From contig OX485805.1 of assembly GCA_950295325.1 (NCBI GenBank), positions 26,459,501 to 26,523,500 of the forward strand: a stretch of 64,000 bases of DNA, written 5' to 3'. Positions 1,023-59,134 of the stretch are shown here, piece after piece; positions within the stretch are counted from its first letter, which is position 1; the number at the start of each line of letters is the position of its first letter. The notes beneath the pieces were generated by a model that saw only the letters and a program-made list of their open reading frames with translations, did not search any database and had not been told where the DNA came from. The translations under genes and the position numbers were made by a program. Source of the DNA: Polytrichum commune (Eukaryota > Streptophyta > Polytrichopsida > Polytrichales > Polytrichaceae).

Positions 1023-1275
1023 CATTGAGTTTGAGGAATAACCGGTTGGAGTTGAAGACTGTGGGAAAATGACCCATCATTTTATGAGGAACTTATAGAA
1101 TATGCCTGAAATTAACAATATAGGAAAACCGGAGGATGTCAACATGTAACCGGTTGGGCTTACAAACACTAAGGATCTCAACCGATTATGAATGCCCAAA
1201 AATCTCTGGTCCACTCCAACCCCGTGAATTTCCACATTCGAACGTAGCATCCTCTCGTCTGGCATCCGACATGAA
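1023..1275 (+). repeat. AACCGGTT-rich 220-bp repeat, single copy
   Basis: This copy has two AACCGGTT palindromes in the expected order and aligns along its length with the tandem units at 50180-51240 and the single copies at 55255-55490 and 58402-58624. The left end lacks the GGGGAGAACC start seen in other copies, so it is slightly truncated. Confidence 0.75.
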
Positions 1276-9090: not shown

Positions 9091-9639
9091 TGCTAAGACA
9101 GTGCCAGCTTAGAAGATTCTTGTGACTGTGCCCGTGTGTTGAGTTTCTTCCCCCACGCATTCTTGTTGATTTCAACCGGTTCTAGTTTTTCTATTGTACG
9201 TGCATTCGAATGCCTTAGGATTATAAAATTACAAGAGATTGCACTAAAATCTCATATTTCGGGAATTGCGACAATTTTTTGAGGAAGGCAGCGTGGAGAA
9301 GACTAAAAAGATGAGTTAGACGGATTGGTTGAGGAACCTTTCATGGTTGGACAGCTCGAATTTCTGAGCATCACGGCAGCTGCGCAACATTTGTGATCGC
9401 GGGAAAACACGAGTAGCTTTAGGTTGTGTAGCATCGGCTGGTGACAAAGTGGAACCAAATGTTGCACTGTAAATTTTAGTGATCAATAGTTTCAAGTCTG
9501 GCCTACTTCGTTGGATCTCCTTCCAACAATTCTGCTTGTCTAGGTCTTGGCAATGGCAGCTGGCGCTGAAACGGGTTTGGGAAGCTTCCTTTCCACTCAC
9601 AGCCTGATTCAATCACATGTTCCTACATCCAGTGATTTT

Positions 9640-14100: not shown

Positions 14101-14936
14101 AATTTGGGTCTCAATTGGATTGGAGAACTTTCCCCTATTTCCAAATTCCAAGAGCATGCGCAAGATTAGCTTACGTGATTGTTTGAATCTGAGACATCGT
14201 GGACCAAAACTTCTCAACCTGGAGGGATGGATAAATGTGGAGTTTCTTGATCTGACACGGTGTTGGTCTCTCACAAATGAATTGGAAAGGTGCCCCATCA
14301 TGAAGAACTTGAAACATTTGGATGTATCATGTTGCGATAAGCTGAAAGCTTTGCCTGACCTCACAAAGTCCAAGAATTTGATGACCTTACATGTCAGGAA
14401 GTGTGATGTGTTGGTCAAGACTTATGCTTCTTCAAGCCAATTTTCGGATTCAATGCCTATGGACCTCCATGTTGGCCTAAATACATCAGGTGTATCATTG
14501 GATGACCAATCTGTAGCATCAAGAATTATCGGGAAATTTGGAGTTTCCTCACAGGTGTGTTCCCTCCAATTTAAGGATTGAGTGTTTTATTTGATAATGT
14601 GTTGTTGAGATATTGGAATGGTTTGAGTCAAATGCTTGATAGTTTTACACAAGTTCAACTGACATGTAGGCCATTGAATGCTATTCTATTATTGGACGCT
14701 TATGATGAAAGGCAATGGCAAACACTGAGCATAAGTTGCTAAACGAATATTTGTGCATATTACATGAAATAATTTATAATGTTTTTGAATAATTTAGATG
14801 GTTGGAAAATGATTTGCATTCAGTTTGCATAGTGAAAGTCCATTGAATTTGTTTGGAAGTGAATGTAATGTGCATATGGTGTTCTTCTTGTAGGAAGCAC
14901 AACAAAGCTTGATTGACTCCTTGAGACATAAACCTG
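11161..14936 (+). CDS. TIR-NB-ARC-LRR immune receptor (NLR), spliced, 3' end not resolved
   Basis: Proposed exons: 11161-11219, 11412-12009 (or to 12022), about 12202-12486, 12619-13287, 13541-14554 and 14894-14936, mostly with GT donors and AG acceptors in matching phase. The TIR domain starts at HKVFLSHSGADK and keeps the Glu of KWPMLEL, the equivalent of the NADase glutamate. NB-ARC motifs follow: P-loop GLGGIGKT (12292-12315), kinase 2 LAIDNVWDD (12661-12690), RNBS-B KVLVTAR, GLPL-type HPLALKVLG, RNBS-D-like MFLDVAIYAP and an intact MHD (13604-13612). About ten irregular LRRs rich in LxxLxLxxC fill the fifth exon. Family members detect pathogens and trigger defence, with TIR NAD+ cleavage as the signal. 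ATG 11161 was chosen because it splices in phase; an in-frame ATG at 11113 is an alternative. Exon 6 (EAQQSLIDSLRHKP) ends at a donor with no assigned partner. The TIR to NB-ARC linker does not read cleanly, so this may be a pseudogene. Confidence 0.85.
12010..12205 (+). other. NLR linker region without a clean reading frame or acceptor
   Basis: A strong acceptor TTTCAG at 12074-12079 opens a frame that, joined to donor CAG|GTTGAG at 12022, reads VALKYVDEHVTCPS and meets a TAA at 12160. A second frame, 12125-12199, reads KVDNPMSIYPFPTVCH, which looks like the usual linker before YVGQDIDAMF. Joining it to the NB-ARC frame at 12202 needs loss of two bases (the repeated AT in CATATTATG). An acceptor AG at 12170-12171 would splice in phase to 12009 but lacks a pyrimidine tract. 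Either a rare splice form or a 2-bp frameshift is present. Confidence 0.5.
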
Positions 14937-25895: not shown

Positions 25896-26407
25896 AGATA
25901 CAAATTCTTGAACTTGGTAAGATCAACCACCAAAGGTTTGAAAGTAACCTGAGAGGATCATCATGAGTGTGTACAAAGTGAACTGGAAGTGATACACATA
26001 AAAGTGTCATTAAAGATGAAGTACACATGAATAGCACCCAGAGTGGGAAAAGAAAAGAAAAAAGGAAAAAGAGAAAAAGAAAATTCTGTAATGCTCGACA
26101 GACACTCAGACTCATTGTCAAAGCTCAGGTAAGCATGGTTTCTAACTTTCTTCTAAATTAACCTAGATCATATGTTTCTCATATACACAAGGCACCACTG
26201 AGGAAACCAAGACAAGAGTCCAGATTGCTCCACTGACAGCAACAACTACCGGTCAAGAATGTAAAAGAAGGGGGAGCATTTGGGGTCATTCTTGATGCTT
26301 GTCCCTCCACCTTTGGTGATCACCATTTGTTATGTTATGATGGTGGGAGTGTCTGATGTCGTTGCAGAAGAAACTTTCTTGACTTATGGTACTATGGTAG
26401 TATACCC
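25896..26407 (-). other. Probable 3' UTR and 3' flank of H2A.Z copy 1
   Basis: This stretch follows the stop codon on the minus strand and matches 42415-42880 downstream of the second H2A.Z gene, for example ACACA(T/A)GAATAGCACCCAG and CATTTGGGGTCATTCTTGATG. Conservation of non-coding sequence beyond the stop in both copies shows that the duplication included it; a UTR role is likely but unproven. Confidence 0.55.
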
Positions 26408-27925
26408 TCAGTCCTTCTTTGGGGTCTTGTTGATGAGCGACTTGTGGATGTGGGGGATGACACCTCCGCCTGCGATCGTTCCTTTGATCAGAGTGTCAAG
26501 CTCCTCGTCCCCCCGAATGGCGAGCTGTAGATGGCGGGGCGTGATTCGCTTCACCTTCAGATCCTTACTCGCGTTTCCTGCCAACTCCAAGACCTCGGCA
26601 GTCAAGTACTCCAAGATGGCCGCCGAGTACACAGCGGCCGTTGCACCCACTCTTCCATTAGCTGCTACTCTTGATTTCAGCAGCCGGTGAATTCGTCCAA
26701 CAGGGAACTGCCCACAAAACAACGAAGTAGATTGTTGAAGTCACCATTTTCTTTTAAACAGAACATCACTTCGACAGCTATGGCACCATGGCCACAAAAA
26801 ACAACAAAGTTGATAAGTCATTCTCTTAAACAACCCGCCACTTCAGCAGCTATGACACCGAGAGCATTGCAAGCTGGATGATGGATTAAATACAATGCAC
26901 ACAATAATCGAGAGATTGTCTCCTTCACAAATGCTGCCATCTCTTCCATTTCAAGTAGGAGGTATAAACTTCGATCACGATGCCCTATTTAAAGGGACAA
27001 GAACCGGTAATTGCAATGAGTGCCATATGCATACACTAGCTCTTGCTTCCAGAAGCCGTTCGAGTGTTCCTTAGATCTCTTTCTCTTACATCAAATGGTT
27101 CAAGTGCTGCTATATTCTTGTAGCGCTTCCTTCTTCGAGAGATTCTTACATTGCGGCCAGTCATTACATTTGGTAGAGAGGTTGGAAGACAAGAAAAACA
27201 GTCCCACACTGCAACAGTGCCGCTATAGCTACCTGTTCCGGTATTAGTTGAGGTTTGAATCCTTGGGAGTTTGATGCTTGCTTGTCTTCAAAGCTGACCA
27301 CATTCTTTTAGTTACATTTCACATGCCTTCTTATTATGAAATTGCTTCAGCTCAAATCTTCGCAACTCCTATGCCCCTGATGAGAGAAGGAAGGAGAGAG
27401 AGTTGCATTAATGTGTCTTCCAGGATTGTTCTGGAGCTGAAGATGGAAAGCAAAGGATATATTGATCCGCTGCCCATTGAGATGGGGTAACCGGAAGTTA
27501 TTTAGTAGTTACAGTCTTGAGCTTACAACTTGGCATTATGCTTCATTGATCTGTTAATCTGAAAAAACAGAGAGTAATCTCTTCTTATGATCCCCGATGC
27601 TATGCCAGTCGACATTTAGGAAGAAAACAATTCTGAGGAGGGAGAGAAAGGAAGAGGGAGGGCAAGAGAGGGAGAGAATGCTTCGTAGCTGCAACTTTTA
27701 AGCTCCAAATAGCAGAATTGAACGCAAGAGACAATATGAGATGATGATATTAAGGTAGGTTGGAAAGGAACAAACCTGGAGGCCAGCGCGGGATGATCGA
27801 GAGGTGGGCTTCTTCTTGTCCTTCTTGTCATCCACTGCGGCAGCGGCGGCGGCAGCGGCAGCAGCGCCTTTACCCATGAGCAGGCCTTTGGCGCCCTTGC
27901 CCGACTGGTTACCTCCCACCACCAT
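26408..27925 (-). CDS. H2A.Z: Histone variant H2A.Z (copy 1)
   Basis: Two exons on the minus strand: 27776-27925 (50 codons) and 26408-26707 (99 codons plus TGA), joined in phase 0 at GLQ|FPVGR with CAG|GTTTGT and TGGGCAG|TT splice sites. The 149-residue product has the H2A fold ([35 protein letters not shown]) and H2A.Z hallmarks: the [20 protein letters not shown] segment with the extended acidic patch, and the short C-tail [11 protein letters not shown]. The N-tail is lysine and glycine rich and carries ten consecutive alanines. It replaces H2A in nucleosomes, chiefly around transcription starts, deposited by SWR1-type remodellers. It is somewhat longer than the 134-136 residues of Arabidopsis H2A.Z because of the N-tail. 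The ATG is the only one before the conserved SGKGAKGL motif. A paralogue lies at 42881-44593. Confidence 0.95.
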
Positions 27926-29110
27926 TGTGCCTCGCTTTGCTCTCTCTTTCCTTTTTCACAAAGCTACAGAATAAAAACTCTGACACTCCGAAATGTGTTG
28001 GGGCGACGGGTATAAGGGTGGGATCGTTCCGCAAGTCGTTGTTCTCGGAAAATAAAATGGTGCATGAGAAAAGAAGCCCGGAGCTCAATCTCAGCTTTTG
28101 AGAGTCACCTCAGCATAAGGCCAAGAAGAACGAGAAGAAAGTCCACCCAAATGCTTGCGGGACTAAGAGCAAACAGATTGACATGCATACATACATACAT
28201 ACAAGAGCACCGAAAGTTGGGCAGGAAAACCCTCTCTCTCTCTTATGTATTAAGCCAAGAACCGAACCAAGGGGACAAGCACTCACACAACCCGCAAGAA
28301 AGAAATGCTCCGAAAATCGCCACACACAAAATCCTTCACGTCTGTTGCTCCGCACTCAGCCACCGGTTGGAAAATTTGGGAAGAGGTACAAAGGACAGAA
28401 GTTGCACCGAGAACTCGAGATGCCTGCAAGAAACTAAGTTACAGACTCACTCCACAACCCAATCAGAAAAAACTCCCGCCACACTCAAACACTCTCCGTC
28501 TCTCTTCAAAAAACGATCCCCAAACCGGGATGGAATGCCCGCGAACTTCGACTCGTCGCTGCTGGCCAGCGAGGAGGAACGAAAGAACCAACGAACGAAC
28601 GGCTTGAACTGAACCGACGCGACGAAAACAGAACAGCGGGCCAGAGAGAGAGAGAGAGCGCGCAATCGTGCGGCAGGCTAAACAAAGCAATGAGTACGCA
28701 AGTGACTCGCACACAACAGAGTGAGAGTACGAGTGAGTGAGAGAGTGAAGGAGTCGTCCCGCCCAAACCCCAGACAGACGACGAAGAGTGACGAGAGGTG
28801 ACGGAAGCAGCGAAAACCAGAAGAGAAGCAAATGATGGGTTGAGTGGAGGCCTGCAAAAGCGAGAGCGGGGGCGCGGGGCCGCAGGCGTGCGTGGGCGGG
28901 AAAGGGCCAGCGACGGCGGGAAAAACGCAGGGAGCGGGAATATTGATTCTTCTCCACTGGCGATGGCGGGCTCCTAATCAAACCGAACCAAACCAGAACC
29001 AAATCAAACCAAACGGAAAGGAAAGGAAAGGAAAGGAAAGGCCCGCGGAAAGAGAAGAGAAGAGAAGAGAAGAGAAGAGAGGGGAGTTGACTCCAAGTGA
29101 TGGTCCGGCT
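27926..29110 (-). promoter_or_regulatory. GC-rich upstream region of H2A.Z copy 1
   Basis: The first 200 bp or so upstream of the ATG match the region upstream of copy 2, for example TTGGGGCGAC(G/A)GGTATAA and AGTCACCTCAGCATAAG. Beyond that the two regions differ in sequence but share character: GC-richer than surroundings, pyrimidine-rich on the gene strand, with simple repeats (ATAC)n near 28185, (GAAAG)5 at 29016-29040 and (AGAAG)n at 29050-29080. Long open frames across here are low-complexity and not credible proteins. I read it as promoter and 5' leader; no TATA box or start site is certain. Confidence 0.5.
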
Positions 29111-39350: not shown

Positions 39351-39357
39351 TTATTTT

Positions 39358-40345
39358 TTTGTTGCATTCCAATCATCTCCAAATTACACAACTCATGTGT
39401 CTATGGGTATACATCCATTTTAGCTTGGTGTTCATAGTTATTTTGATTACAGATGAATGAGTTAGATGTAGGGAAGAAATTATCCATCAACCCCAAATAG
39501 GTTGCTTGGGAAGTTAGGGGTTAAGCTCTCAAATTTGTACACCTGGATGAATGGCATGGCCCTTGCATTTAAGCATGAGCAACATACTATATAGACGAAC
39601 CTTTTTTCTTGCATTCTGATCATCTCCAAATTGCACGGCTCATGTGTCTATGGATACATATCCATTTTAACTTGGTGTTTATAGTTATTCTGATTGTAGA
39701 TGAATAAGTTAGATGAGGGAAGAAATCATCCATCAACCCCAAATAAGTTGCTTGGTAGGGGTTAACCTCTCAAATTTGTATGCATGGATGAATGGCATGG
39801 CCCCTACATCTAATCATGAGCAACATATTATATAGATGAACCTTTTTTCTTGCATTCTAATCATCTCCAAAGTGCATGGCTCATGTGTTTATGGGTATAT
39901 ATCCTTTTTAGCTTGGTGTTTATAGTTATTTTGATTGCGGATGAATGAGTTAGATGTAGGGAAGAATTCATCCATCAACCCCAAATAAGTTGCTTTGAAA
40001 ATTAGGGGTTGAGCTCACAAATTTGTATGCCTGGATGAATGATTTGGGCCCTGCATCTAATCATGAACAACATACTATATAGACAAACCTTTTTTCTTGC
40101 ATTCTAATCATCTCCAAATTACACGGCTCATGTGTCTATGAATATATATCCATTTTAGCTTGGTGTTTATAATTATTTTGATTGCGGATGAATGAGTTGG
40201 ATGTAGGGAAAAAATCATCCATCAACCCCAAATAAGTTGCTTGGGAAGTTAGGGGTCGACCTCTCAAATTTATACACTTGGATGAATGGCCCGGCCCCTG
40301 CATCTAAGCATGAGCAGCATACTAGTACATAGACGAACCTTTTAC
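39358..40345 (+). repeat. Four-copy tandem array, period about 245 bp
   Basis: The word CTTGGTGTT(T/C)ATAGTTATT starts near 39424, 39671, 39912 and 40159, giving spacings of 247, 241 and 247 bp. Each unit carries TTGCATTC(T/C), ATCATCTCCAAA, GGCTCATGTGT(C/T)TATG, CATCAACCCCAAATA and TGGATGAATGG in order. The array ends at AGACGAACCTTTTACC. Copies are slightly diverged, with small indels. No coding frame crosses a unit. Confidence 0.85.
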
Positions 40346-40790: not shown

Positions 40791-41595
40791 CCATCTACCT
40801 TGAGTAGGGAGTCCCAAGTTGAAATATCTATACTGATAGGTTGACCTCATGAATAGGTTGACTCTTTACCCATGCAAATTAACTTGGGTCAACACCATAT
40901 CACAAAAACTAGTAATTTTTTTATCCGTTTGTATGGCAGCCACAATAACTTAAAAAAATGTTTCTTATATATTGTTACTGTGATTTTAAATATGTAGAAT
41001 AGCGTGGAATGTTGATAAATTAACGGGAATCAACCAAAATATTGTACATATCAACGTAGGGTTTTAGAGTTATCAATTCGTATGGCAACCACATTAAAAC
41101 TAAAAAATAAGAATTCTTGTACTTTGTTATTGTAGTAACATATATCAATAAATTATATGAAATGTCAATAAATTAGCATGGGGCAACCTAATTGCATACC
41201 TCATTCTAGCTACCTCATTCTAGCATACCTCATTGGAAGACCAACATTATTAACCCATCAACCCATACCCATAACAATAATTTGTGTAGATGATCTCCAT
41301 TTTTGGGAAGGGTATGAAAGTTCCGATACTCTTCATTTTGCAACTTGAATAGTTCAAATAAACTCAGTGACTAATGACTTGTCCATCCAGACATACACTA
41401 GTTGGAGCATGTCTCCGATACTTTTCCTGAAAGCTTGAAAACTAACCAACTAACCTTTGAATTCTGCTGTCTACATTCATTTAAAAATCCTTCCCTTCCC
41501 TTTTCCAACAACTGATGCATGGCTTTTGCAAGTCAAAATACCTCACCCTTGGCATTTGTAAGGTCAATATAAAATCTGGTGCCTCAGCATCAGTG

Positions 41596-41790
41596 TCCGG
41601 GGAGATTTTGGGCATGATGGGTCAAAATCCGAGTGTTTTGAAGTCCCAATCGGTTACATGTTGTGATCTTCGGTTTTTCTTTAATAATTTGACGTATATT
41701 CCACATATTGCTGTAAAATGATCGGTTATTTTCCTGAAGTCTTGAACTTCAACTGTTATTTCTCAAACTCAACTGGTTCAGCTGTAAATA
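41596..41790 (-). repeat. AACCGGTT-family 220-bp repeat, diverged inverted copy
   Basis: Read on the minus strand it follows the unit order. On the plus strand it starts GTCCGGGGAGATTTTGGGCA and carries AATCGGTTACATGTTG, CTTGAACTTCAACTG and AACTCAACTGGTTCAGCTG. The palindromes have decayed to single-base variants. Confidence 0.7.
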
Positions 41791-42414
41791 GCTGTCAGTT
41801 CTCCTTGTTCATTGCTGGGCATGCAACCCTCTTCACCTCGACAGGTGTATCTTAATACATTCTCATCACCTCAAGAGCTGGAGCCATTCAACATTGTGTA
41901 GAGCTGGAGAGTCTACAAGGAGTTGATCCTGACCTTGCTAGCTTTGGAGACTTGGACTCTCCATAATAACAGCAAACATATGCCAAATATAGAATACGAG
42001 TTCAATAATACATGTTCCAAAGGTGCACTTTATGCTTGCTTGAATTCGTTCTTGACTGTTATAGCTCTTTGTTGCTTTGATATACCCCAAACCTAGTTCA
42101 AGGCAAAGGAGCTGTACAGATGAAAGAGCGTTGCACAGTCATGTGCTGAGTCAGACACAATAAAAAAAGCAAGGACAAGTATGTACTCAAAGTACTGTGT
42201 CAACATCTAGAATTCATGCCTGCCAAAAAATGTGCGACTAAAACTGCAATGTTCACGCTATCGTATTGAAGGATAGGAAGCAGAAATTTCCCACTTAAAA
42301 GTTCCAGAGTAGAAAAATCTCCCTTGACAAATGAAGAAAATGGCCTTGTGATGGATGTCATCATGTTACTTATTGAGAAGTTTTGAGGAATACTGCAGAC
42401 ATTCAATTCACCAA

Positions 42415-42880
42415 ACTAGGCAAGATCAGCCAGGAAGATGCATGAAACCTCAAGGGCACCATCAGTGGGCGGGAAACTGAACTGGGTGTGATACACGTAG
42501 AACTGTCATTTAAGCTGAAGTACACAAGAATAGCACCCAGCCAAAAAAATCTGGAAAGCTCCACACACACTCAGACTCATTGTCAAAGCCCAGGCCAGGA
42601 GTGGAACGAGGGCAGAGCATGCTACCCCTCTTAACCTAGACCACATGTTCTCATCATATACACAAGGTACCACTGAGGAAACAAAGATCAAGAGTCCATG
42701 TCGCTCTACTGACAGCAACAACTTCAGTCAAGAATGTAAAAGAAGGGGAGCATTTGGGATCATTCTTGATGCATGTCCCTCCACTTTTGATGATCTTCAT
42801 TCGTTGTATGATGGTGGTGATGATGGTGTGTCGCTGCAGAAGAAGAAACTCCTGACTTATGGTACTATGGCAGTAAACCC
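42415..42880 (-). other. Probable 3' UTR and 3' flank of H2A.Z copy 2
   Basis: Counterpart of 25896-26407. Colinear with small indels up to the stop codon, then diverging beyond about 42415, which marks one edge of the duplicated block. Confidence 0.55.
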
Positions 42881-44052
42881 TCAGTCCTTCTTTGAGGTCT
42901 TGTTGATAAGGGACTTGTGAATGTGGGGGATGACACCTCCGCCTGCGATCGTTCCCTTTATCAGAGTGTCGAGCTCCTCGTCCCCCCGAATGGCAAGCTG
43001 TAGATGGCGGGGAGTGATACGCTTCACCTTCAGATCCTTACTGGCATTCCCTGCCAACTCCAAAACTTCGGCAGTCAAGTACTCCAGGATGGCCGCCGAG
43101 TACACCGCGGCTGTTGCACCCACTCTTCCATTAGCTGCTACTCTTGATTTCAGCAGCCGGTGAATTCGTCCGACAGGGAACTGCCCACAAAAAAAATAAC
43201 AAAGTGGATAGTTCAGGTTACCATTTTCTTTTTAACAAACGCATCACTTCGACATCTATGGCACTGTTGGCACTACAAACCTCAATGGCCTAGCATGTTC
43301 GAAACCGATATGTGCCACCGCTCGGAAGATAATAAATTTTAAAGTATCTGAGTTTCTCTAAATCCCTCTTTTCCTTACAGCTTAAATAGATAGCCACCTC
43401 TGAATATATCAGGAAAAGATTGATCTTACTAAATTCATTCTGTAGGTTTGCGCACAAACATCGGGTCAACATGCGCTCAAAGGGATGCACGTTTCACTAT
43501 GTCCCATACAGTAAAGGGAGTCACTGTTTGCAAGGTTTGTAACCTTCTCCAATCTATATGCAGTCAATATGCATACATTCGTTATCCACATTCGCTCTTC
43601 CAGCAGCTGCTAGTCTGTTCCCATGATTTCTTATGCTAAAATACAAGGGGCTCCTGAATTTCAGCCACTAATTTAAATATCTGTACCGGCTGAACAACAA
43701 GCAGGTCCACTCTTGTACACAGCGTAATGCATCGGCTAGAGTGCTCTTTCACATGTGCTCCCGAGGAATGTCCTGGGACCGGTGCATTACGCCGCATAAT
43801 GCATTAGTACCAAAGCATTCCGTGCAGCTGCACACCTCAGTGAAACCCCAAGTGTTTATACATGTATGGGCGCAGCGGCACTATGGCTACATTTTGCTTC
43901 AATCAATCAATCACGTCTCTGTGGTTGAGAATTGTGAATACAAGGATGTATGATCCGTCAACAGCCTACCGTGGCTCAAATCTTTGGTTATATTTCACAT
44001 GCCTTTCTATGAAAATAATGCTTCAGCTGAAATCTTCACAAACGGGACTCCC

Positions 44053-44089
<37 letters not shown>

Positions 44090-44593
44090 GCATTAATGTG
44101 TCTTCCAGGATTTTGCTGGAGTTGGAGAGAGAAAGCAAGGATATATTGCCCCGCTACCCGTTGAGATGGGGTAACCGAAAGTTATATGGTTGTTACAGTC
44201 TTCAGTTCACAACTTGACATTAAGTCCGATAAATGGAAAACCAGAGAGTCATGTCTTCTTATGATCCCCCATGCTATGCCAGTCGACATTTAGTATGAGC
44301 AGAATTCTCAGGAGGGAGAGAGAGGAAGAGAGAGGGCAAGAGAGGGAGAGAATGCTTCGTAGCTGCAACTTTTCGCTCCAAATAGTAGAATTGAAGGCAA
44401 GAGAGAATGCGCTATGATGATATTTGAGGTATTTTTATAAGGGGCAAACCTGGAGGCCAGCGCGGGATGATCGAGAGGTGGGCTTCTTCTTGTCCTTCTT
44501 GTCATCCACTGCGGCGGCGGCAGCGGCAGCAGCGCCTTTGCCCATGAGCAGCCCTTTGGCGCCCTTACCCGACTGATTTCCTCCCACCACCAT
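42881..44593 (-). CDS. H2A.Z: Histone variant H2A.Z (copy 2)
   Basis: Two exons on the minus strand: 44450-44593 (48 codons) and 42881-43180 (99 codons plus TGA), with the same phase-0 junction GLQ|FPVGR and the same splice sites as copy 1. The 147-residue product has every H2A.Z feature of copy 1. It differs by eight rather than ten alanines in the N-tail and by KTSKKD rather than KTPKKD at the end. The intron (1269 bp) is colinear with that of copy 1 (1068 bp) but contains an expanded GA microsatellite (44058-44087). Both frames are intact and splice signals are conserved, so both copies are probably functional and could be differently regulated. The pair arose from a block duplication, since introns and flanks match as well. 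Confidence 0.95.
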
Positions 44594-46070
44594 TGTGCCT
44601 CGCTTTGCCTTTCTTATTCAAGCCCGCCCACACAACCGAGGTTTCACCTCAATCTACACAACAATACGCCTCTGACACTCCGTATAGAAATGTTGGGGCG
44701 ACAGGTATAAAGTTGATATCGTTCTCGGAGAGTGAAATGGTGGTGAAAGGTGCATGAGAAAAGAAGCGTGGAGCTCAACCCCAGATTTTGCGAGTCACCT
44801 CAGCATAAGACAGGCATAAAGTAAAGGCCAAGAACTCACACAAGAGTTGAGCGACTCAGGGTAGAACAAGTCCTCCAAATGTGTGGGAGTAATAAACCGC
44901 TACAACCCACTCTCGCATGCATACAAAAAGCAGAAAGGTTGGGCTAGAACGAGCACCCTGCCCTTCCCTTCCCCCCTGCTACTTACAAAACCCAAACAAT
45001 CTGTCAAGAAAACAAAGGACACACACAGTAATGGTCGGCAAAGAAGACTTCCCGAAAGCTCCTCAAGTGTATTCTTCTCTCGCAAGCAACCGCGTCCCAC
45101 ACTGTGATAGTTGAAATTTTGTAAACAAAAATAAACCCGAGTCGCACTCACCGAGACAGACGAACGACTACTTGCAAGAAACAGAAACCGGCTTCAAACT
45201 CCAAACCCCCCGCAAGGCTAAAAGCCAACAAACTGCAATCCACCTATCCCTTAGGAACCTACCAAGCTACTGCCGCCAACTTCACCTCACCCCACCCCAC
45301 GTGCGTGTGTAAAAAAAGCTACCCTTCTCTCTCTGTCTCTCTCTCTCAACCACCTGGAGAGCAGTAACACACTCAAAACTCAAACTCAATTGCGCAACTC
45401 CCAACCCCCTTCCTTCCTTCCTTTCTGCTTCCACAGCGATCCACACCCCGGCTCCCAAACGAACCCCGAGACCAACCAACACAACAAATAACACTCCACT
45501 CCCTTACTCACTCCCTTACTCAAAGAAACTCCTCCCCTCACTTCCTTCACACAACCAACCAACCAAAAGAGCCACACAGACCTCTAATAAGACGCCCCGA
45601 GAGCGCGGAAGCCGCCCCGAGCAACAAACCCTGCCCCTGCTGCACCCGACCAACCTCCTTCCCGACTGCAGACAGACGAACGCAACGTTGTGTGACGAGA
45701 ACGAGTGTGTGACGGAGAGGGTGCGCAGAGGGGAGATTTGGTGCGAAGAAGGGAGGGGAAGGAGGAATTGCGGGAGATAGGAGGAGCGAGAGGGAGAGGG
45801 AGAAGGGAGCGGAGGAGAAGACAAGGCCAAGCGCAAGGGAAGAAGAGAAAGCGTGAGGAGCGGTGGACTTGTCCCTTAACGGTAGACTCCCTCCGGAGCC
45901 ACTCTCCTCTGTCGAGTCTCCGCAGGCCCCGCTGGCGAACGGCTGGCGAACGGCCGGGGAACGGCTGGGGAGCGTCGGGAATGCGCCTGGATGCCTCGAC
46001 GGCGTTTATATCCTCGACGGTCGCGGCCAACAAAGTACTCGTTGCTTTGGGGACTGCGCTGCTCACATGA
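44594..46070 (-). promoter_or_regulatory. GC-rich upstream region of H2A.Z copy 2
   Basis: The first 250 bp or so match the region upstream of copy 1; farther out similarity is lost. The stretch 45280-46050 is GC-rich and strongly pyrimidine-biased on the gene strand, with runs such as GGGAGAGGGAGAAGGGAG on the plus strand and a near-tandem GGCTGGCGAACG around 45938-45955. Overlapping long frames on both strands are low-complexity. Promoter and leader function is inferred from position and composition. Confidence 0.5.
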
Positions 46071-49984: not shown

Positions 49985-50169
49985 TTACGTGTGTAATACA
50001 TATCCTGCCCTCAAAAGTAGTTGAACGAGCATGTCTCAAATGGGCACAAGACAAGCTTGGCGAAGAGTGCCTGCTCAGAGGAGTTCCAGCTTTAGAGATT
50101 GATGGGGGAAGAACAGGCCAACGATCTGTACAGACTAAACAGTTGGGAGCAATGATCGGGGAGCACTGA
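49985..50169 (+). CDS. Coding-like fragment left of the 220-bp array, unknown product
   Basis: Frame with KVVERACLKWAQDKLGEECL and LEIDGGRTGQRSVQTKQ, ending TGA at the edge of the tandem array. Composition is coding-like, but no domain is recognised and no start is fixed. A similar coding-like stretch (REGELRKTEEMDLLVC) follows the array near 51235-51310, so the array may have expanded inside a gene or gene fragment. Confidence 0.25.
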
Positions 50170-50179
50170 ACAGTGGGAA

Positions 50180-51240
50180 AACCGACCACTAGTTACATAT
50201 GAACTGGTTGAAGTTCAAGAGGTCAGGAAAATTACCCATCATTCTACAGGAATCTATGGAATATACCTCAAATTAATCAAGAAGAACGGAAAGATCACAA
50301 CATGTAACCGGTGGGGCTTGGATACACTAGGATCTTGACTGATTAAGCTCAAAATCCTTCCCGAACATTGGCAGGGAGAACCAACCACTAGTTACATATG
50401 AACCGGTTGAGTTTGAGAAATAACCAGTTGAAGTTCAAGAGTTCAGGACAATTACCCATCGTTCTAGACAATTACCTCGAATTAATCAAGGGAAATGGAA
50501 AGATCACAACATGTAACCAATTGGGCTTTGAAAAGACTAGGATCTTGACTGATTATGCTCAAAATCTTCCCCAGACATTGGCAGGGAGAACTGGCCGCTG
50601 GTTACATATGAACCAGTTGAGTTTGAGAAATAATTGGTTGACGTTCAAGAGTTCAGGAAAATTACCCATCGTTTCAGAGGAATCTATGGAATATATCTCG
50701 AATTAGTCATGACGAACGGAAAGATCACAACATGTAACAGGTTGGGCTTGGAAACACTAGCATCTTGACAGATTATGCTCAAAATCCTCCTCATATGTTG
50801 GCAGGGAGAACCGGCTGCTAGTTACATATGAACCAGCTGAGTTTGAGAAATAACTGGTTGACGTTCAAGAGTTCAGGAAAATTACCCATCGTTCTAGAGG
50901 AATCTGTAGAATACACCTCAAATTAATCAAGGAAAACGGAAAGATCACAACATGTAACCGGTTGGGCTTGGAAACACCAGGATTTTGACTGATTAGGCTC
51001 AAAATCCTCCCCAGACATTGACAGGGAGAACAAGCTGCTAGTTACTTATCAACCAGTTGAGTTTGAGAAATAACTAGTTGAAGTTCAAGACTTCAGGAAA
51101 ATTACCCATCATCCTAGAGGAATCTATAGAATAGACCTCAAATTAATCAAGGAAAACGGAAAGATCACAACATGCAACTGATTGCATTTGGAAACTCTCG
51201 GATATCGACTGATTATGCCCACAAATCTCCGCGCACTCTG
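50180..51240 (+). repeat. Five-copy tandem array of the AACCGGTT unit, period about 220 bp
   Basis: The word A(A/C)GTTCAAGA starts near 50211, 50431, 50641, 50861 and 51081, giving spacings of 220, 210, 220 and 220 bp. Each unit has GGGAGAACC at the left, a GTTACATATGAACC run, TTTGAGAAATAAC, AATTACCCATC, GGAAAGATCACAACATGTAA and CTCAAAATCC. AACCGGTT or one-base variants occur at four fixed places per unit. Single dispersed copies of the same unit are at 1023, 41596, 55255, 56814 and 58402. Confidence 0.85.
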
Positions 51241-51526
51241 TTCAGGAGAGAAGGAGAGCTTAGAAAAACAGAGGAAATGGACTTATTAGTGTGTCCAGGG
51301 GGCGTCCTGGGAAAAGAAACACCATCACTTCACAGTTTACAGTATTTAGTGTCACTCATTATTCGGAGTTTTGCAGTGATGTAACTTAATATATGTGAAG
51401 GATGTAAGATTCTACCAAATAAAGTCATTTAGGTTGTATAATGTCCATACAACTCAGTTATTAAGTATGTGTTGGTAAAAACTGAAATCTACAGCAAGAA
51501 GTTATAGAATTGTGTAATTCTGCATG

Positions 51527-51635
51527 CACTACAACAAAACGCATGTTTTATGACTACAATTTATGATTACATTCAGTCATAAACACTGAGTGCAATCATA
51601 AATTGTAGTCATAAAACATGCGTTTTGTTGTAGTG
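51527..51635. mobile_element. CACTA-type hairpin MITE with perfect ATG target duplication
   Basis: A 109-bp element beginning CACTACAACAAAACGCATG. The first 42 bases are the exact inverted complement of the last 42, and the stem continues with only a couple of mismatches to a small loop. It is flanked by ATG on both sides (51524-51526 and 51636-51638). CACTA ends and 3-bp target duplications define the CACTA (En/Spm) group. The perfect stem suggests recent insertion or selection on the hairpin. Confidence 0.85.
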
Positions 51636-52667
51636 ATGGTAAGTGAAACTAAATATCATAAATGGTGTCATGGTATTATTTAGTTTCTATATCACATGAA
51701 CCTCCAACCGACATGAATTCGATATACAAGGAAAGGGAAATTTCTACAAATTTATTGAAAAGAAGCTTTGAGTGAAGTGGAGCTCATCACATTGACAAGT
51801 TTTGACTCCAAACTAGGGGTGTGTTTCTAGGCTTGTAAATAAAAGTACTTCGGACCCGTGTCATCCGGCAAGCATGTTGCACCCGTGCATGTGAATTGAT
51901 GTCCCAAGTTACTTCGCATTGTCTGCTCAACTTACATGTGGATAGGAAGTCAAGACCATGACATGTCAATGAGTTGCACATTATTACTAGTGCTTAATTT
52001 TTAACCACATTGATTATGGTGAGCATATGATAAATAATGTGGACAAATGTATAGTGTGACTTACCTTGACAACCCTATAGTATGGCCCCACAAATGCACC
52101 ATCATGCAAGATGATAATGCGCAACCCTAGTTAAACTTGTCATGCCCTGGTGATATACCCACTTCCTTCCCTCCTATTAGAGGTAAACTTATAAATTCAC
52201 ATTGACTTGAATCCAATTGAGATTTGAAATGTATATTGTGAACCTTTGATGTTAATTATTGTGGGTTGGTATATAGTGTGCATCCACAATATTATATTAA
52301 ATGTTTTTGGTGTTGAAAGTAAGGTGAATAGTGTAGCCCACGATACTTACCATTATCAACACACTTAAAGTAGATGTGCCTAACTTGGTGCATGATCTTA
52401 AATGGGCACTTATATTTGAGTGGTGAACAGTGGGTGTGAATCTAAGAATGGACACCAAAAAACACGTGTTGGAAAGAGATTGGACTATGTGCTCAAAATT
52501 TATTAACCATTCTAGACGCAATAGCCAACATAATTGGACGGACTTATATTATCATTTCGAAACTTGGAGAATCTTCACTTTGACAATACTAGATACAATA
52601 TTCATACAAACTCCAAAGATTGTGACAAAATTGGCTATGGGCACGATTTGGAAATTCATCTTGCACT

Positions 52668-52997
52668 CACTAGTAGAAAACATTGCAAAAAAGATTCGCA
52701 GTCGTTTTCCCATTGTGGTTCTTTTGACCAGCCTGCTCTGCAGTCGCTAAATGACTGCAGATTTGTTTTTAGTTTACCAACTAAAATTTTAGGAATATGG
52801 GGGCTTGTAATATACCGTTGGAAAGGTCTTGAAAATACCTTTCCAGCAGTGTATTACACGCCCCGAAATGTTTAAAAATAAAATCACAAAACAAAAAAGA
52901 AAATATTTAGTCATTTAACAACTACAAAACATGCTGGTCAAAAGAATTGCAATGGAAAAACGATTGTGGTTCTTATTCACAAATTCTTCTACTAGTG
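52668..52997. mobile_element. CACTA-type MITE with ACT target duplication
   Basis: Starts CACTAGTAGAAAA and ends with TTCTACTAGTG; inverted similarity extends about 75 bp inward with indels, including CTTTTGACCAGC on both arms. ACT flanks both ends (52665-52667 and 52998-53000). The 330-bp interior includes a near-palindrome around ATACCGTTGGAAAGGT. A partial relative is at 18125-18335. It is inserted in a copy of repeat family A. Confidence 0.8.
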
Positions 52998-53059
52998 ACT
53001 AATCGTGTCCCACAAGATGTATCTATAAAGAGAAAAGTGTTCATTTAAGACCCACTTAC

Positions 53060-54835
53060 CTTAAATATACAAGGTTTGCAATTTTACTGATAAGGTGTTG
53101 TATGCAACCTCTTTTCTTTTTTCTTTTTCTTTTTTTGAATAATTGCATAAACCTACCTAATTGTGTTAACCTTTGATTGCTCGAGGATCAACCCCCTTGG
53201 CGCTTTTCGTTGGTCAAACATGAAGTTCACCTCAACCATGAATCAATTGTTTCCAAGCTCAACTAATTAATGACCATATGGAAATTTTGGCTCAGGCAGT
53301 AAAGGGTTGACTATTTAACCTACTAGAGTGGTGTCTATATTATGAGTATATAGCCCAATCTCATCATAATGTACGTGTTTTGTTTAGTGTCCCTCTTTAA
53401 CTTCAAGCTTTGCCTTTCACCATTATATATTGGTTTCCCATCACAACGAGTGACCATGTCAGGTCCATGTCATGTCATAGAGAAGTACTGGCTTTACACT
53501 AGGGTCCCACTAAAGTCCAAGATCAAAGAAACTATTGAATTGAGCAATCTTATTCGTTGAGAGCATATTGTTGGGCCCAAGTAATTTACTCTAGGGTTCG
53601 GGTCTAAGATTTGGAAAATGTTGGGTGACATTAATGTGGTATCTCTTTCTCGTTAAATCTCAGCAGTTCCAACTTCCACTCAAGAAAATACTCTTTCAAA
53701 TTTGAGAAACTAAGGATCAAGGTGGAGTCCAATCTAAAACCCGGAAATAAGGATTCAAAGAGTGTTTGGATTCCCAAGTTTCTTGGACCTAGATCCTACT
53801 AAAACCCACCTTGAGTCCAAATATTGCCTTGCCTTCTTTTTGGCATGCTTTCTAACTGGTAAATTAGAAACTATCGAATGTGGCATAGAACTTGAAAATA
53901 ACACATGAACTAATAATATTTTCCAATTTGGATTGAGGTAGAGTGCTTATTGTTGAAATCAAACTAATCACATCAATGCGTATAAGTTCTAATAGCAAAG
54001 AATATTCTAGTATTCTAACTGTGTTTTGACTACGATCGATTTTGGAAGAGTACATTTTACACTATTGTTCTTGATTCACAAAGGTCGCTTTCTTGTATAA
54101 AGTACCACTCATTGTCTAGTAGGCCAGGTCAATCCCTTCCTCAAACTGACGTTACCTTTAGAGATGTGTTTGAAGGGTTGTTTGATCCTTAAAAATAATT
54201 ACGTGTTGATCATCATCGTATAGTGTTTTACATCATTACAAGCATTTGAGTCTTAGGCAACTTTGTCCTGCATTGGTGTAAGATGAGTTGCCTAGATCAT
54301 ATATGGTTGTAGTGTATATATTGAGTTGTTGTGTTGAAACTTGTAAATAATATGGTGGATTTTTGAATTGGTGCTTTACTACTTAGGTCGTTATCAATCT
54401 TAGTTTATTGTAAGCAACGTTGTGTTTCTTATAGCTAGGAGTTTGCAAATGTCCGCTATAGATGACCTGCACTTCAATGAGTTGGTAATGCTCATGGTTG
54501 TGCCTCCAATCCACACAATACAAATACTTATCAAGTCACCATCTTGGTCCATAAATGTAGCTATTAAGAGTTCATCTAGAATTTGCAAGTGTTTAACGTT
54601 CAATGTTGAGTCAACATTGTTACATTCCCTCTAGGGTTTGATATCATTACACTACTAATTCAACATCTAGCTAATCAATTGTTCAACATTGATTGATCTC
54701 ATATGTTATCCTATTGAATCTTGCAACTATAGGATATATTAACAAAATACTAAATTTGTAACCCTATATCTTGTAGCATTGATTCAATGTTGTAGTCTCA
54801 TACGGGATGAGAAGAACTTGAAGATAAGGTCAACG
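53060..54835. other. Intergenic, no gene recognised
   Basis: No exon-like frame, RNA gene or terminal repeat could be supported. A T-rich tract lies near 53108-53137. Confidence 0.4.
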
Positions 54836-55210
54836 TGCCTAATTTGGTCAATGATCTTAAACATACACCTATATTTGAGTGGTATGTGATTGGGTGTAAA
54901 TCTAAGAACGGACATTAAAAAAAAATTACATGGGTTGAAAAGAGATTAAACTACGGGCTCAAAATTTGTCAACCATTCTAGATACAAATAGTCAACACAA
55001 AGAGAGGACTTATATGAAGGTTTAATGACTCGGAGAATCTTCAGTTTCACATTTGATAGGATATTCATACGAGCTCCGAAATGTATGAGGAAAATGGCTA
55101 CGGACACAACTTGAATTTGTTAATCACCTTGTACTAATCGCGTGTTTCATGTCCTACAAGAAGCACTAGGTGCAGAAAGAAAAGTGTTTGTTTAAGACCC
55201 GCTTATCTCA
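54835..55210 (+). repeat. Dispersed repeat family A copy
   Basis: Ordered match with 52380-52660 and 56385-56690 (TAAGAACGGACATTAAAA-type, CATTCTAGA, GAGAATCTTCA, TTCATACGAGCTCC) and continuing into the AAGTGTTTGTTTAAGACCCG tail. It is followed within 50 bp by an AACCGGTT-family copy, as is the copy at 525-1010, so the two families travel together at several sites. Confidence 0.6.
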
Positions 55211-55254
55211 TGCCATGATCATGGTGTAGATGTTTGATCGTTACAATGATCTAC

Positions 55255-55490
55255 GATGGGGGAGAACCAACAGTTAGTTACAAGTGAACCGGTTGAGTTT
55301 GAGAAATAACCGGTTGAAGTTGAAGACTGCAGGAAAACTACCGATCATTTTAGAGGAATTTATGGAATATACCCCAATTTAATAAAGGAAAACTGGAGGA
55401 TGTCAACATGTAAGCGGTTAGACTTGCAAACACTAGGATCTCAACCGGTTATGCCCAAAAATCTCCCCAATCACTGGCGCTGATATGAGG
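55255..55490 (+). repeat. AACCGGTT-family 220-bp repeat, well-preserved single copy
   Basis: Contains three perfect AACCGGTT palindromes (near 55287, 55308 and 55443) and one variant, AAGCGGTT (near 55409). Left end GGGGGAGAACC and right end AAATCTCCCC are inverted relative to each other, giving short terminal inverted repeats. Confidence 0.8.
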
Positions 55491-56384
55491 GATAACTTAA
55501 GGGACAGAAGAACAGTAATTAAATTGACCTGTATGATCTGAATGTGTATTGGATTGCTCCCCACAGCAAAGACTTCTGAACTGCCTTCTTAATAGCAATA
55601 GCACCTAGAAATGTTCCTTTTTTTGCAGAATGAGTGGATTTCAGTATACAATCACCCCAGGTCAGCAATCTGCACAAGATGAAATGCAACTTCTACCATC
55701 ATTCTCAGGAGATTGCAAGATTTATTTATTTATTTTATTTTTGCAGAGATTGGAGGTTCATATCCCCGATCAGTTTCTTAAAGTTTTGAGACGAGGATGT
55801 TATATGTAGTGTCACTAACGAAGAAATCGATCTTGCAGTGTAATGCAATGCAATCAAATGAAGTTGGTTCTAAGCTCCAGGAAGCGAATGGACTTATGGG
55901 AGTAGGAGTACGTTGAGATGGAGTCGAAAAGGTTACTTGCCTATAGTATCGTAGTGTAGTGGTCTTTTGTGAGACAAATGCTAATAACAACCCAACAATG
56001 AAATTGGTACAAAGACGTAACACTATTCACATAGTTCTGTCTATCTTTTGTGTCAGAAAATCATCAAGAGAGTCTATGAATATTCTTAAGAGACTATTCT
56101 GGACACCTCGAAGTTTTTGAGTTACATCTCACATTGAATCTTCGAGGTTCAAGGGAGAATCCGACGATGTCAGCATTTCATCGAGCACTATAACGATACA
56201 ATGTTTGGAGAGGTTGGCACTGGGATTAGAAAAATGAACATGAACATAACTTGGCTGTGAAAAATGTTATGGACTTGAGACTACCTAGTGCTACGTTATA
56301 AAAAATAGGAAATCAAACTCTCTTCAATACATTTAGTGCAACGTTGAGTTGAACACCACAAAGAAGAGGGATAAGGTAGACGTG

Positions 56385-56810
56385 TCTAATTCGATTTCTA
56401 ATCTTTTAAACGGACACCTATGTGTGAGTGGTGTATGGTTGGGTGTGAATCCAATAATCAACACCAATAAGACTTGTGTCAAATAAGAAAGAAAGATTGG
56501 ACTACATGTTCAAAATTTGTTAAGCATTCTAGACGCAATAATCAACATCATTGGGGAAGGGGGGGGGGGGGGAACAATATGATCATGTCATGACTTCAAG
56601 AATCTTCACTTTGACAATTGATATGATATTCATACTAGCTCCAAAAAAGGTTAGGAAAGTGGCTATGGGCACAATTTGGGTTCACTAATCAACTCTCATT
56701 TAATGAATTCGAGAGTCTTCACTTTGACAATCGACAAAATATTCATACGAGCTCCAAAAACAACAAGGAAAGTGGGTAGATGCACAATTTGGATTCACTA
56801 ATCAATGATC
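56385..56810 (+). repeat. Dispersed repeat family A, with partial second copy
   Basis: Full-order copy to about 56690 followed by a partial repeat (56700-56810) of the same phrases GAGAATCTTCACTTTGACA / GAGAGTCTTCACTTTGACA and TTCATACGAGCTCC. A G homopolymer of about 15 bases lies at 56560-56574. Confidence 0.6.
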
Positions 56811-56813
56811 AAG

Positions 56814-57025
56814 GAAATTTTGGGCACAATCGGTTGAGATTCTAGTGTTTGCAAACCCAACCAATTACGTGTTGACATCCTCTGGTTTTCCTTGATTAAA
56901 TTGGGGTATATTCTAGAAATCCCTCTAAAACGATCGAAAATTCTCTTGGAGTCTTGAACTTCAACTGATTATTTCTCAAACTCAACCGGTTCATCTGTAA
57001 GTAACCGCCGGTTCTCCCCGACCAT
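56814..57025 (-). repeat. AACCGGTT-family 220-bp repeat, inverted copy
   Basis: Read on the plus strand it starts TTTGGGCACAATCGGTTGAG and ends CCGCCGGTTCTCCCCGACC. One perfect palindrome remains, near 56980. It is flanked on both sides by pieces of family A. Confidence 0.75.
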
Positions 57026-57494
57026 AGTCACTAATCATCTTGCACGAATTGCGTGTTTCACATCCTCCGAGAAGTGGATGTGGAGAGGAAAAGTGTCCAT
57101 TTAAGAGCCGCTCACCTTGGTGGAGTTGGTGGGAGGACTGGAACACTGGAGACTCTGTGTCAGGTGCCATCCGGCAGTGGAGGTGATGTGTGTGGAGAAA
57201 GCGCCTTGTGTCAGCTCCCCCAGGCCGCATGTGTGTTTTAACCACAATCGATCCTGCATATCGCTCGAATCATCCCGAGCTTGGCCATAAGAATATGATT
57301 TGGGTGAACCAACTCATGCACCCGTTCCTTGTTGGATGTCTAAACCCTTGCCTCCAAGGAACTAGTGTACGGGTTGGTTCGTCCCAGCCATAAGAATACT
57401 AGTCAGACGAGGGTCAGAACTCGGTAAGAATGAGCATATATACCTCAAGTTGCTATGAAAACTACGGTATATATCCTCGTTCTTTGGACTGCCT

Positions 57495-57680
57495 ACGGGT
57501 TGCCTGCCTGTTTTGGTCACTCTAAGCAACTATCATGAAGTCCAAAGTTGCCGTAGTTACGGGTTGCCTGCTTGTTTTGGTCACTCTAAGCAACTATCAT
57601 GAAGTCCAAAGTTGCCGTAGTTGCGGGTCTTTGGACTTCCTGATAGTTATTTAGAGTGACCAAAACAGGCAGGCAACCCG
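57495..57680. repeat. Two direct arms plus one inverted arm: predicted hairpin
   Basis: A unit starting CGGGTTGCCTGC(C/T)TGTTTTG occurs at 57496 and again at 57560, 64 bp apart. Its inverted complement lies at 57630-57680 with about three mismatches over 51 bp. A transcript through here would fold with either left arm. No target duplication is evident. Confidence 0.75.
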
Positions 57681-58083
57681 GAAAATAATATATCAAAAGC
57701 GGGGCACTTTCAACATGGAATCAACATGTGTCAAGCAGTCATCCAAGTTTCTCTTGCGGTTTTTGAGATGGCTATTGCTAATTTCATCTAAGGTGGCCAA
57801 TTTACCCTAAACCTTTACCTTCACTTCCGCGTCTCCCATTAGTTACCATGAACACTCATGTGACATGGTTTGTTATGTGTGAGAGATATGTTGCATTTGT
57901 GAAAGATTGTTGGGCTAGAAGTGTTAGAATGGCGAGACAAAATACTTTGCAATGTACGTTTAAACCTATTGATACCTAAAAGCTAATTTATTAATGTTCA
58001 CACAAAATCTCAACAGTCCATATGTTCAATATCATAAGATTATAACATTGACGTGTACGAATGCTCTCAGGCAAAGGTGACTA

Positions 58084-58261
58084 CACTAGAAGAAAACTTG
58101 TCCAATACAACCACTTGTTATGACTTGGCCATTGCCACTTATGGCAAGAAAATGTACAAATCAATCATTTTGGTTGTCAACCAAAGGGTTTTGCTTGCTA
58201 ATTATCCCAAAACCACAACCAAAAACCTTTTGTTGACATTGAAAATGATTTATTTCTAGTG
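58084..58261. mobile_element. Possible CACTAG-ended MITE
   Basis: Starts CACTAGAAGAAAA and ends TTATTTCTAGTG, a short inverted match; similarity fades after about 13 bp. Flanking triplets CTA and ATG do not match, so this is weakly supported. Confidence 0.35.
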
Positions 58262-58401
58262 ATGCCCGAACAAAAAAGTCCTTCTTGGACTTTAGGGATT
58301 AAAGTTCAATGTTGGTTTTGGGTAGAGGTATTTACCTTACAAGCATTCACAAAAGCCATGGCAAAGCCGTCTTGTAGTCAGGCACTGGATTTGCATCAGT
58401 G

Positions 58402-58624
58402 ATCGGGGAGATTTTTGGGCATAATCGGTTGAGATCCTAGTGTTTGCAACTCCAACCGGTTACATGTTGACATCCTTCGGTTTTTCTATATTAATTATTT
58501 GAGGTATATTCCATAAATTCCTCTAAAGTGATCAGTAATTCTCCTGAAGTCTTGAACTTCAACCGGTTATTTCTCAAACTCAACCGGTTCATCTGTAACT
58601 AACTGCCGGTTCTCCCTGATCATA
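58402..58624 (-). repeat. AACCGGTT-family unit with 14-bp flanking duplication
   Basis: The 223-bp unit has three perfect palindromes (near 58474, 58560 and 58582). It is flanked by GATTTGCATCAGTG (58388-58401) and GATTTGCATAAGTG (58625-58638), a direct repeat with one mismatch that looks like a target-site duplication. This gives the clearest ends of the family, and its length equals the period of the tandem array at 50180. Confidence 0.75.
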
Positions 58625-59134
58625 GATTTGCATAAGTGTCGTGAAGGATTGTCTGCTGTCAATTCTTTTAATGTCGCTCACATGCTCAACATGACTACAG
58701 ACAACAAGTCATGCTCATGCACTATGAACTGCTTGCATCAATATATATATATATAGATCATATGTTACAAACAGCATTCACCATCCAAAGTCTGCACTCA
58801 CAGTTAAATAATGCTAAGACTTTTGAGAACCTCTAGCCAAATGTTGTATATCAAATGGTGCCTCCTGAAATAACATGGATTTGTTGAGTTGGTACAGTGT
58901 GTTTCATCATATTTTAGGTTATGTTGCGAGTGTTCAGGGCAGTATGTGTTTGGGAACAGGTCAAGAATGTTAAGCAATAGCCCATTTGATACGTATGACC
59001 ATGACTGCTGGGTATGGTAGGTCTAAATTATCACGAGCCAGACACCTTTCCCTCTCAATTCACTGCACCGCATGTGTCTGCATGTCCTAATTAGTCACAA
59101 TATCTCGAAGTAACTTTGGTTAGCCTGCTTATAA

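Follow-up and report, generated by a model that had tools for sequence, protein, structure and literature searches.

Two hAT transposons, Ac and Hermes, offer the closest described parallels to the element considered here, a short repeat built around the octamer AACCGGTT in the moss Polytrichum commune. The Ac transposase binds a hexamer, AAACGG, that is repeated near both ends of its element (PMC3260210), and the BED domains of Hermes bind subterminal repeats (PMC10368747); Hermes is further reported to use nTnnnnAn targets, with an 8-bp duplication (PMC10368747, PMC2803484). Miniature inverted-repeat transposable elements (MITEs) of the hAT type are described as prevalent in nearly all plant genomes studied, four bryophytes among them (PMC12550479). 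The repeat was met, both dispersed and as a tandem array, in a 64,000-nucleotide stretch of DNA (the window; contig OX485805.1, positions 26,459,501 to 26,523,500, of assembly GCA_950295325.1). We consider it very probable that it is a hAT-type MITE with AACCGGTT/AACCG subterminal transposase sites, and that the array grew from one copy by tandem duplication.

Ac/Ds shares with the moss MITE its 8-bp target duplications and a CGG-bearing repeated hexamer, and Ds1 (about 400 bp) is likewise short, having little in common with its partner beyond the ends and a few subterminal hexamers (PMC3260210). The Ac hexamer is AAACGG, however, and its terminal inverted repeats measure 11 bp, whereas the MITE has a palindromic AACCGG(TT) and other ends; transposase binding is established for Ac, while the MITE is known from its sequence alone. 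Hermes resembles it in that its subterminal repeats are short, a pair of them making up a quasi-palindrome, and in its nTnnnnAn targets and 8-bp duplication (PMC10368747), but has AAGT or AAGC as its motif and encodes its own transposase. A further hAT-type MITE family, mar of Drosophila, is known to us by a title cited in PMC9659126. The same source describes satellite arrays derived from MITEs, such as miDNA4 of Xenopus tropicalis and BIV160 of Venerupis; these too are tandem arrays grown from a MITE, yet they belong to other groups (Tc1-mariner, Pearl), and the moss array comprises five CANTG-joined units at one place. In the literature on the Polytrichum genome and its transposable elements, or on moss hAT MITEs, we found no description of the present family; it is well accounted for as a further, new family of a type already known, with little in it to surprise.

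The octamer cluster

The window (G000:C3:26459501-26523500 in our coordinates) is part of a 408-Mb genome in 64 contigs, of which C1 to C7 together make up about 406 Mb. It contains 12 exact AACCGGTT sites, against a mean of 0.56 in 100 dinucleotide shuffles (maximum 3; none of the 100 reached 12), and the cluster reported by the first-pass annotation is therefore real. So is its observation that nearly all sites fall inside one repeat unit: copies of the repeat hold 11 of the 12, and the exception, an isolated octamer at 9174..9181 with no strand assigned, lies outside every copy found, as a BLAST comparison of the consensus with the window (E up to 0.01) detected no copy there.

Genome-wide, the octamer is not a rare word, occurring at 20,241 places; since the reversed control word TTGGCCAA occurs at 18,026, the genome-wide excess is modest by this measure. 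Even so, 45 of the first 100 listed octamer places (of the 20,241) are paired at the element's spacings, and for this reason motif-based searches for Grainyhead/CP2 targets in this genome should mask the MITE family first.

Ends, target-site duplications and class of the element

The consensus of the solo element – built from the 41 copies of set B described below, and thus leaning towards them – is 226 bp long, with CAATGAACGGGGAGA as its left and TCTCCCCGGACACTG as its right end and terminal inverted repeats of about 15–18 bp. The 220 bp originally given for the unit holds as the period of the tandem array, but not as the length of the solo element. When 44 copies were aligned with their flanks, the left limit of similarity was CAATGAACGGGGAGAACC and the right limit TCTCCCCGGACACTG, with 8-bp direct repeats outside. 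By a uniform procedure that allowed small shifts, flanking direct repeats agree at at least 7 of 8 bases in 35 of 76 copies, 22 of them exactly; in an internal control, taken 60 bases inside the element, none of the 76 reached 7 or 8 matches, the best being a single 6 of 8. The duplications lean towards nTnnnnAn (T at position 2 in 15 of the 35, A at position 7 in 19), which is a bias rather than a fixed pattern.

Short terminal inverted repeats that start with CA and finish with TG are typical of hAT elements, and the inverted ends here do so, reading CAATGAACGGGGAGA and, reversed, CAGTGTCCGGGGAGA. The element is short and non-coding, with 18 stop codons on a one-frame translation of the array. 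Because of the 8-bp duplications with their nTnnnnAn lean, together with a 226-bp consensus bounded by inverted ends, the repeated unit is, on these features, a non-autonomous hAT-type MITE.

Duplications of 8 bp are also made by P elements and Merlin, and the ends might have come from one of these other cut-and-paste superfamilies. The superfamily is assigned from ends and duplications alone, and the partner transposase was not found among the 49 hAT domains, of 150 scored, that were inspected; against such an origin, the CA..TG ends and the bias at positions 2 and 7 fit hAT, and hAT domains are abundant in the genome. A genome search for the P-element family (PF12017) gave no match, but its controls were silent too, so that it proves nothing. 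On balance, we regard another superfamily as quite improbable. That a 220-bp tandem array is present might, in turn, suggest that a satellite sequence accounts by accident for the surplus of octamers and that no transposon is at work. Solo copies with 8-bp duplications of their own, however, occur on many contigs, and two in the window have exact ones; these target-site duplications refute a purely satellite origin, which is left vanishingly improbable.

The five dispersed copies noted earlier in the window were recovered in both orientations, two on the plus strand and three on the minus strand. The copies at 56803..57027 (minus) and 58397..58625 (minus) have exact 8-bp target-site duplications, TCACTAAT at 56795-56802 and 57028-57035 for the first and ATTTGCAT at 58389-58396 and 58626-58633 for the second. 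At 41591..41814 (minus), the flanks CTCAGCAT and CTGGGCAT match at 6 of 8 bases, and at 55251..55476 (plus) the flanking repeat matches at just 5 of 8; the latter copy has exact AACCGGTT at 55287, 55308 and 55443, the last of these being the fourth position of the element. The remaining plus-strand copy, 1025..1206, is truncated to element positions 43-215: it has exact AACCGGTT at 1040 and 1148, with no recognisable left end and no duplication.

Copy number, subfamilies and age

An internal 19-mer of the element has 451 exact matches in the genome, and a 33-base pattern in which the middle two bases of the first two sites were left free has 1,408; exact left ends number 383 and exact right ends 409, and the reversed controls of all these searches gave 0. 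The full consensus yielded 8,447 first-look candidates, a rough number, of which 40 were scored. Identity to the consensus reaches 96% in the closest of the 40 and does not exceed 93% in any other. The family thus has well over a thousand scattered copies.

Two sets of copies were used for comparison. Set A comprises 35 copies, chosen by another part of the element than the palindromes. They come from 60 computed 19-mer places, drawn from the 100 listed of the 451 and lying without exception on contig C1; two of the 60 belong to tandem groups and were taken as longer pieces instead. Set B consists of 41 copies, 36 from a BLAST-type search and the five solo copies of the window. Array loci (L001-L004 and L010) were excluded from the solo-copy set, and L039-L041 were left out of both the consensus and set B, as their flanks are common with those of L014 in one larger duplicated block. 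Mean identity is 85.0% in set A and 89.6% in set B. To judge from these copies, the burst is old, with no sign of recent movement seen among them, and what had looked like a puzzling excess of octamers is reduced to an ordinary old transposon burst.

Linked diagnostic bases divide the copies into two subfamilies, I (41 copies) and II (25), with 10 of the 76 fitting neither. The subfamily consensuses differ at 16 positions, none of which falls in the three exact sites, a distribution that chance gives about 1 time in 6.

Several loci show copies in unusual surroundings. L014 and L039-L041 (G000:C3:40.79-40.96 Mb) are four same-flank copies within about 170 kb, part of the larger duplicated block just mentioned, and L129 (G000:C1:7137300-7139700) packs seven copies, each covering at least 178 element positions, and a fragment into 2.4 kb, some of them nearly abutting. 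At L043 (G000:C2:52494204-52494880), a MITE is inserted into the AACCGGTT of another copy, with the target duplication AACCAGTT/AACCGGTT; a general insertion preference for the octamer, which this locus suggested, was rejected, as just one of the 35 good duplications is of this kind.

Layout and decay of the palindromes

Exact AACCGGTT stands three times in the consensus (positions 37, 58 and 162). A fourth site, at 193, differs between the subfamilies: it is GACCGATT in subfamily I, where 0 of 41 copies have the exact octamer, and AACCGATT in subfamily II, where 3 of 25 have it. The four fixed positions proposed earlier are therefore three exact sites and one degenerate one. The distance from site 2 to the left end is exactly 57 bases, as is that from site 3 to the right end. 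The words AACCG and CGGTT together occur 8 and 9 times in the two subfamily consensuses; 2000 shuffles of each gave means of 0.65 and 0.54 and never more than 4 and 3.

Individual copies have lost much of this layout, all three sites being exact in just 1 of 35 copies in set A and 3 of 41 in set B. Palindrome CpGs were kept in 55 of 100 cells in set A, against 52 of 102 for the other internal CpGs that are fixed in both subfamilies; the corresponding counts in set B are 66 of 120 and 68 of 121. Among the changed palindrome CpGs, 90 of 99 had become TG, CA or TA, as from deamination. The palindromes are thus not kept significantly better than their neighbours, their CpGs equalling the fixed internal ones and the excess at their non-CpG bases, given below, not being significant. 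The first-pass annotation had asked how conserved the palindromes are relative to the rest of the unit, and the sequence half of that question is answered by decay at a common rate. On this comparison, the octamers decay along with the element after insertion, and no host role is needed.

Some of the counts pull the other way. When all other internal CpGs are included, two of which vary between the subfamilies, they are kept less often than palindrome CpGs (72 of 167 in set A, 97 of 201 in set B), and so are those in the terminal repeats (28 of 63 in set A, 32 of 78 in set B). Non-CpG palindrome bases are kept at 0.901 against 0.854 for other internal bases in set A, and at 0.937 against 0.916 in set B, values equalled by random window triplets in 9.8% and 24.3% of draws. 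There may, then, be a weak constraint on the palindromes.

Putative transposase sites and the search for a partner

The palindromes had been proposed, as one of two possibilities, to be subterminal binding sites for the element's own transposase. This proposal is consistent with what we find and is now favoured, because the repeat turns out to be a hAT-type MITE with AACCG/CGGTT words clustered towards both ends; as the clustering is like that in Ac/Ds and Hermes, we infer the same role here. The best reading of the palindromes is therefore as putative binding sites for that transposase. The AACCGGTT palindromes and the AACCG half-sites would have been subterminal repeats to which a hAT transposase attached by its BED zinc finger, and this binding would have paired both ends for cut-and-paste transposition. 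The sites would have been maintained while copies were being produced, and not since.

What speaks against this picture is that no autonomous partner came to light around the hAT domains inspected. A genome search with the Pfam hAT dimerisation domain gave 1,060 candidates, 150 of which were scored (best E 5.8e-19). The surroundings of 49 of these 150, mostly just the 1.3–1.5 kb of downstream flank but also loci of 8–9 kb, were compared with the MITE and with its ends, allowing up to 4 mismatches in the latter; judged by eye, none of the 49 is framed by matching ends. Whole or partial MITEs do lie near hAT domains at L050, L066, L079, L082, L092 and L134, none of them framing the domain. Nor did an inspection by eye of the first 100 listed places for each end reveal a left–right pair 1.5–6 kb apart, and the commonest hAT family among the 12 flanks printed finishes differently, in ...GGGCTCTG.

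That family is a large one (12 flanks among L045-L077), whose 3' ends have variable ATGGGTG/ATGGGCA-like subterminal repeats before finishing in GGGCTCTG. Four loci were tried and rejected as partners. L141, seemingly a 1.55-kb element with two left ends, is two separate MITE copies; L142 is a MITE copy with a foreign insertion; L143 is two MITE copies, one of them internally shortened; and at L092 a complete MITE lies about 1.7 kb from a hAT remnant.

Grainyhead/CP2-type sites

The other possibility raised was that the element disperses ready-made sites for host factors of the Grainyhead/CP2 type; on such a reading, the palindromes would be kept by the bound factor. The optimal site of mouse GRH proteins is reported to contain the octamer AACCGGTT (PMC3348937), three perfect copies of which stand in the consensus, and the non-CpG bases of the palindromes are marginally better kept. 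Yet palindrome CpGs decay like the other fixed internal CpGs, the excess at non-CpG bases falls short of significance, and the copies with all three sites exact are as few as stated above. With no significant extra conservation after insertion, and octamers that decay like the remainder of the element in two copy sets, host regulatory sites were rejected as the principal explanation, which we hold to be very improbable. Two negative results have little bearing on it: a genome search for the CP2 family gave no match, but neither did its controls, so that it says nothing either way; and we found no grainyhead paper for Physcomitrella or moss in the literature, which says little.

Because the decay test averages over copies, a retained minority is possible. 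A hAT transposase recognising the palindrome of an ancient host factor might, in its burst, have sown Grainyhead-type sites by the thousand, and the host might later have kept a few percent of them close to genes; we consider this a long shot.

Origin of the tandem array

The five tandem units reported for the window were confirmed by BLAST of the consensus, which places them head to tail, on the plus strand, at 50150..51240 with a period of 220; the left end CAATGATCGGGGAG stands at 50150 and the right end, ...CTCTG, at 51240. Tandem Repeats Finder gives a 220-bp array of 4.7 copies at 50202-51227. A gap of about 21 bp in unit 1 (50150..50370) brings its sites 1 and 2 together as AACTGGTT, and the unit also shows a partial second left-end motif, CACTGAACAGTGGGAAAACC, at 50164. 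Units 2 to 4 occupy approximately 50371..50580, 50581..50800 and 50801..51020, and unit 5 occupies 51021..51240. Across all five units, the array retains just two exact AACCGGTT, at 50401 in unit 2 and 50956 in unit 4.

The units are 79–89% alike, and at positions 33, 134 and 144 all five share a base that is present in 5%, 3% and 0%, respectively, of the 76 other copies. Because of these private bases, the units most likely descend from one insertion, as far as their sequence tells. At a typical junction, ...CCCCAGACATTGGCAGGGAGAACC, a single CANTG both closes the left unit (as CACTG) and opens the right one (as CAATG), and this common CANTG explains five of the six bases that separate the period of 220 from the 226 bp of the solo element. 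There is no target duplication between units. The fused junction, searched with up to 3 mismatches, occurs at three places in the genome, all in this array (control 0); the array's own fourth junction (about 50795) is too diverged for this search, and decayed junctions elsewhere could escape it likewise.

The simplest reading of the junctions is that the array arose by duplication in place through CANTG. It would have begun as one inserted copy, in which CAATG on the left and CACTG on the right are near-direct repeats; misaligned recombination, slippage or microhomology joining at CANTG would have fused the right to the left end, dropping five bases, and later expansion and independent decay would have led to the present five units. 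So understood, the array would illustrate clearly how tandem units, head to tail, can be seeded by a hAT MITE through its near-palindromic CANTG ends. One observation counts against this explanation: the outer flanks of the whole array match at just 5 of 8 bases.

Transposition itself could also have started the array: an excised circle, its ends joined, may have been integrated or copied in multimeric form, or two copies may have inserted head to tail. Circles with joined ends are reported as common excision products of Hermes and hobo (PMC2803484), class II elements are said often to make head-to-tail double insertions (PMC12368964, citing McGurk and Barbash 2018), and in the array right ends are indeed fused to left ends, no target duplication intervening. 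Very few of the Hermes and hobo circles, however, are reported to have precise joints (PMC2803484), and the common CANTG accounts for the junction by itself. The search with up to 3 mismatches detected this junction nowhere outside the array, and local duplications elsewhere have other breakpoints – with about 243 bp at L128 and about 297 bp, flank included, at L130, and a break at element position 35 at L132 – as expected of ordinary tandem duplication. The private bases of all five units disfavour five separate insertions, but not one initial double insertion. Taken together, this makes a transpositional start unlikely and leaves duplication in place as the preferred explanation.

Other features of the window

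A second tandem array, at 39355-40343, has a period of 247 and 4.0 copies with 86% matches; it showed no match to the AACCGGTT unit in a self-comparison of the window. Pieces of a resistance-type gene with TIR, NB-ARC and LRR domains lie at 11452-14581 (E 2.4e-16 for TIR and 2.4e-5 for NB-ARC), the LRR matches being weak, with one above the cut-off. A block duplicated between 25975-28119 and 42474-44809 is preserved in four pieces that are 78–88% identical, and a 64-bp direct repeat at 57494-57680, 85–97% identical, adjoins an inverted copy. Finally, 51523-51638 forms a near-perfect hairpin with CACTACAACAAAA at its ends and a folding energy of -51.9 kcal/mol, against a shuffle mean of -13.3; we take it to resemble a CACTA-type foldback MITE.

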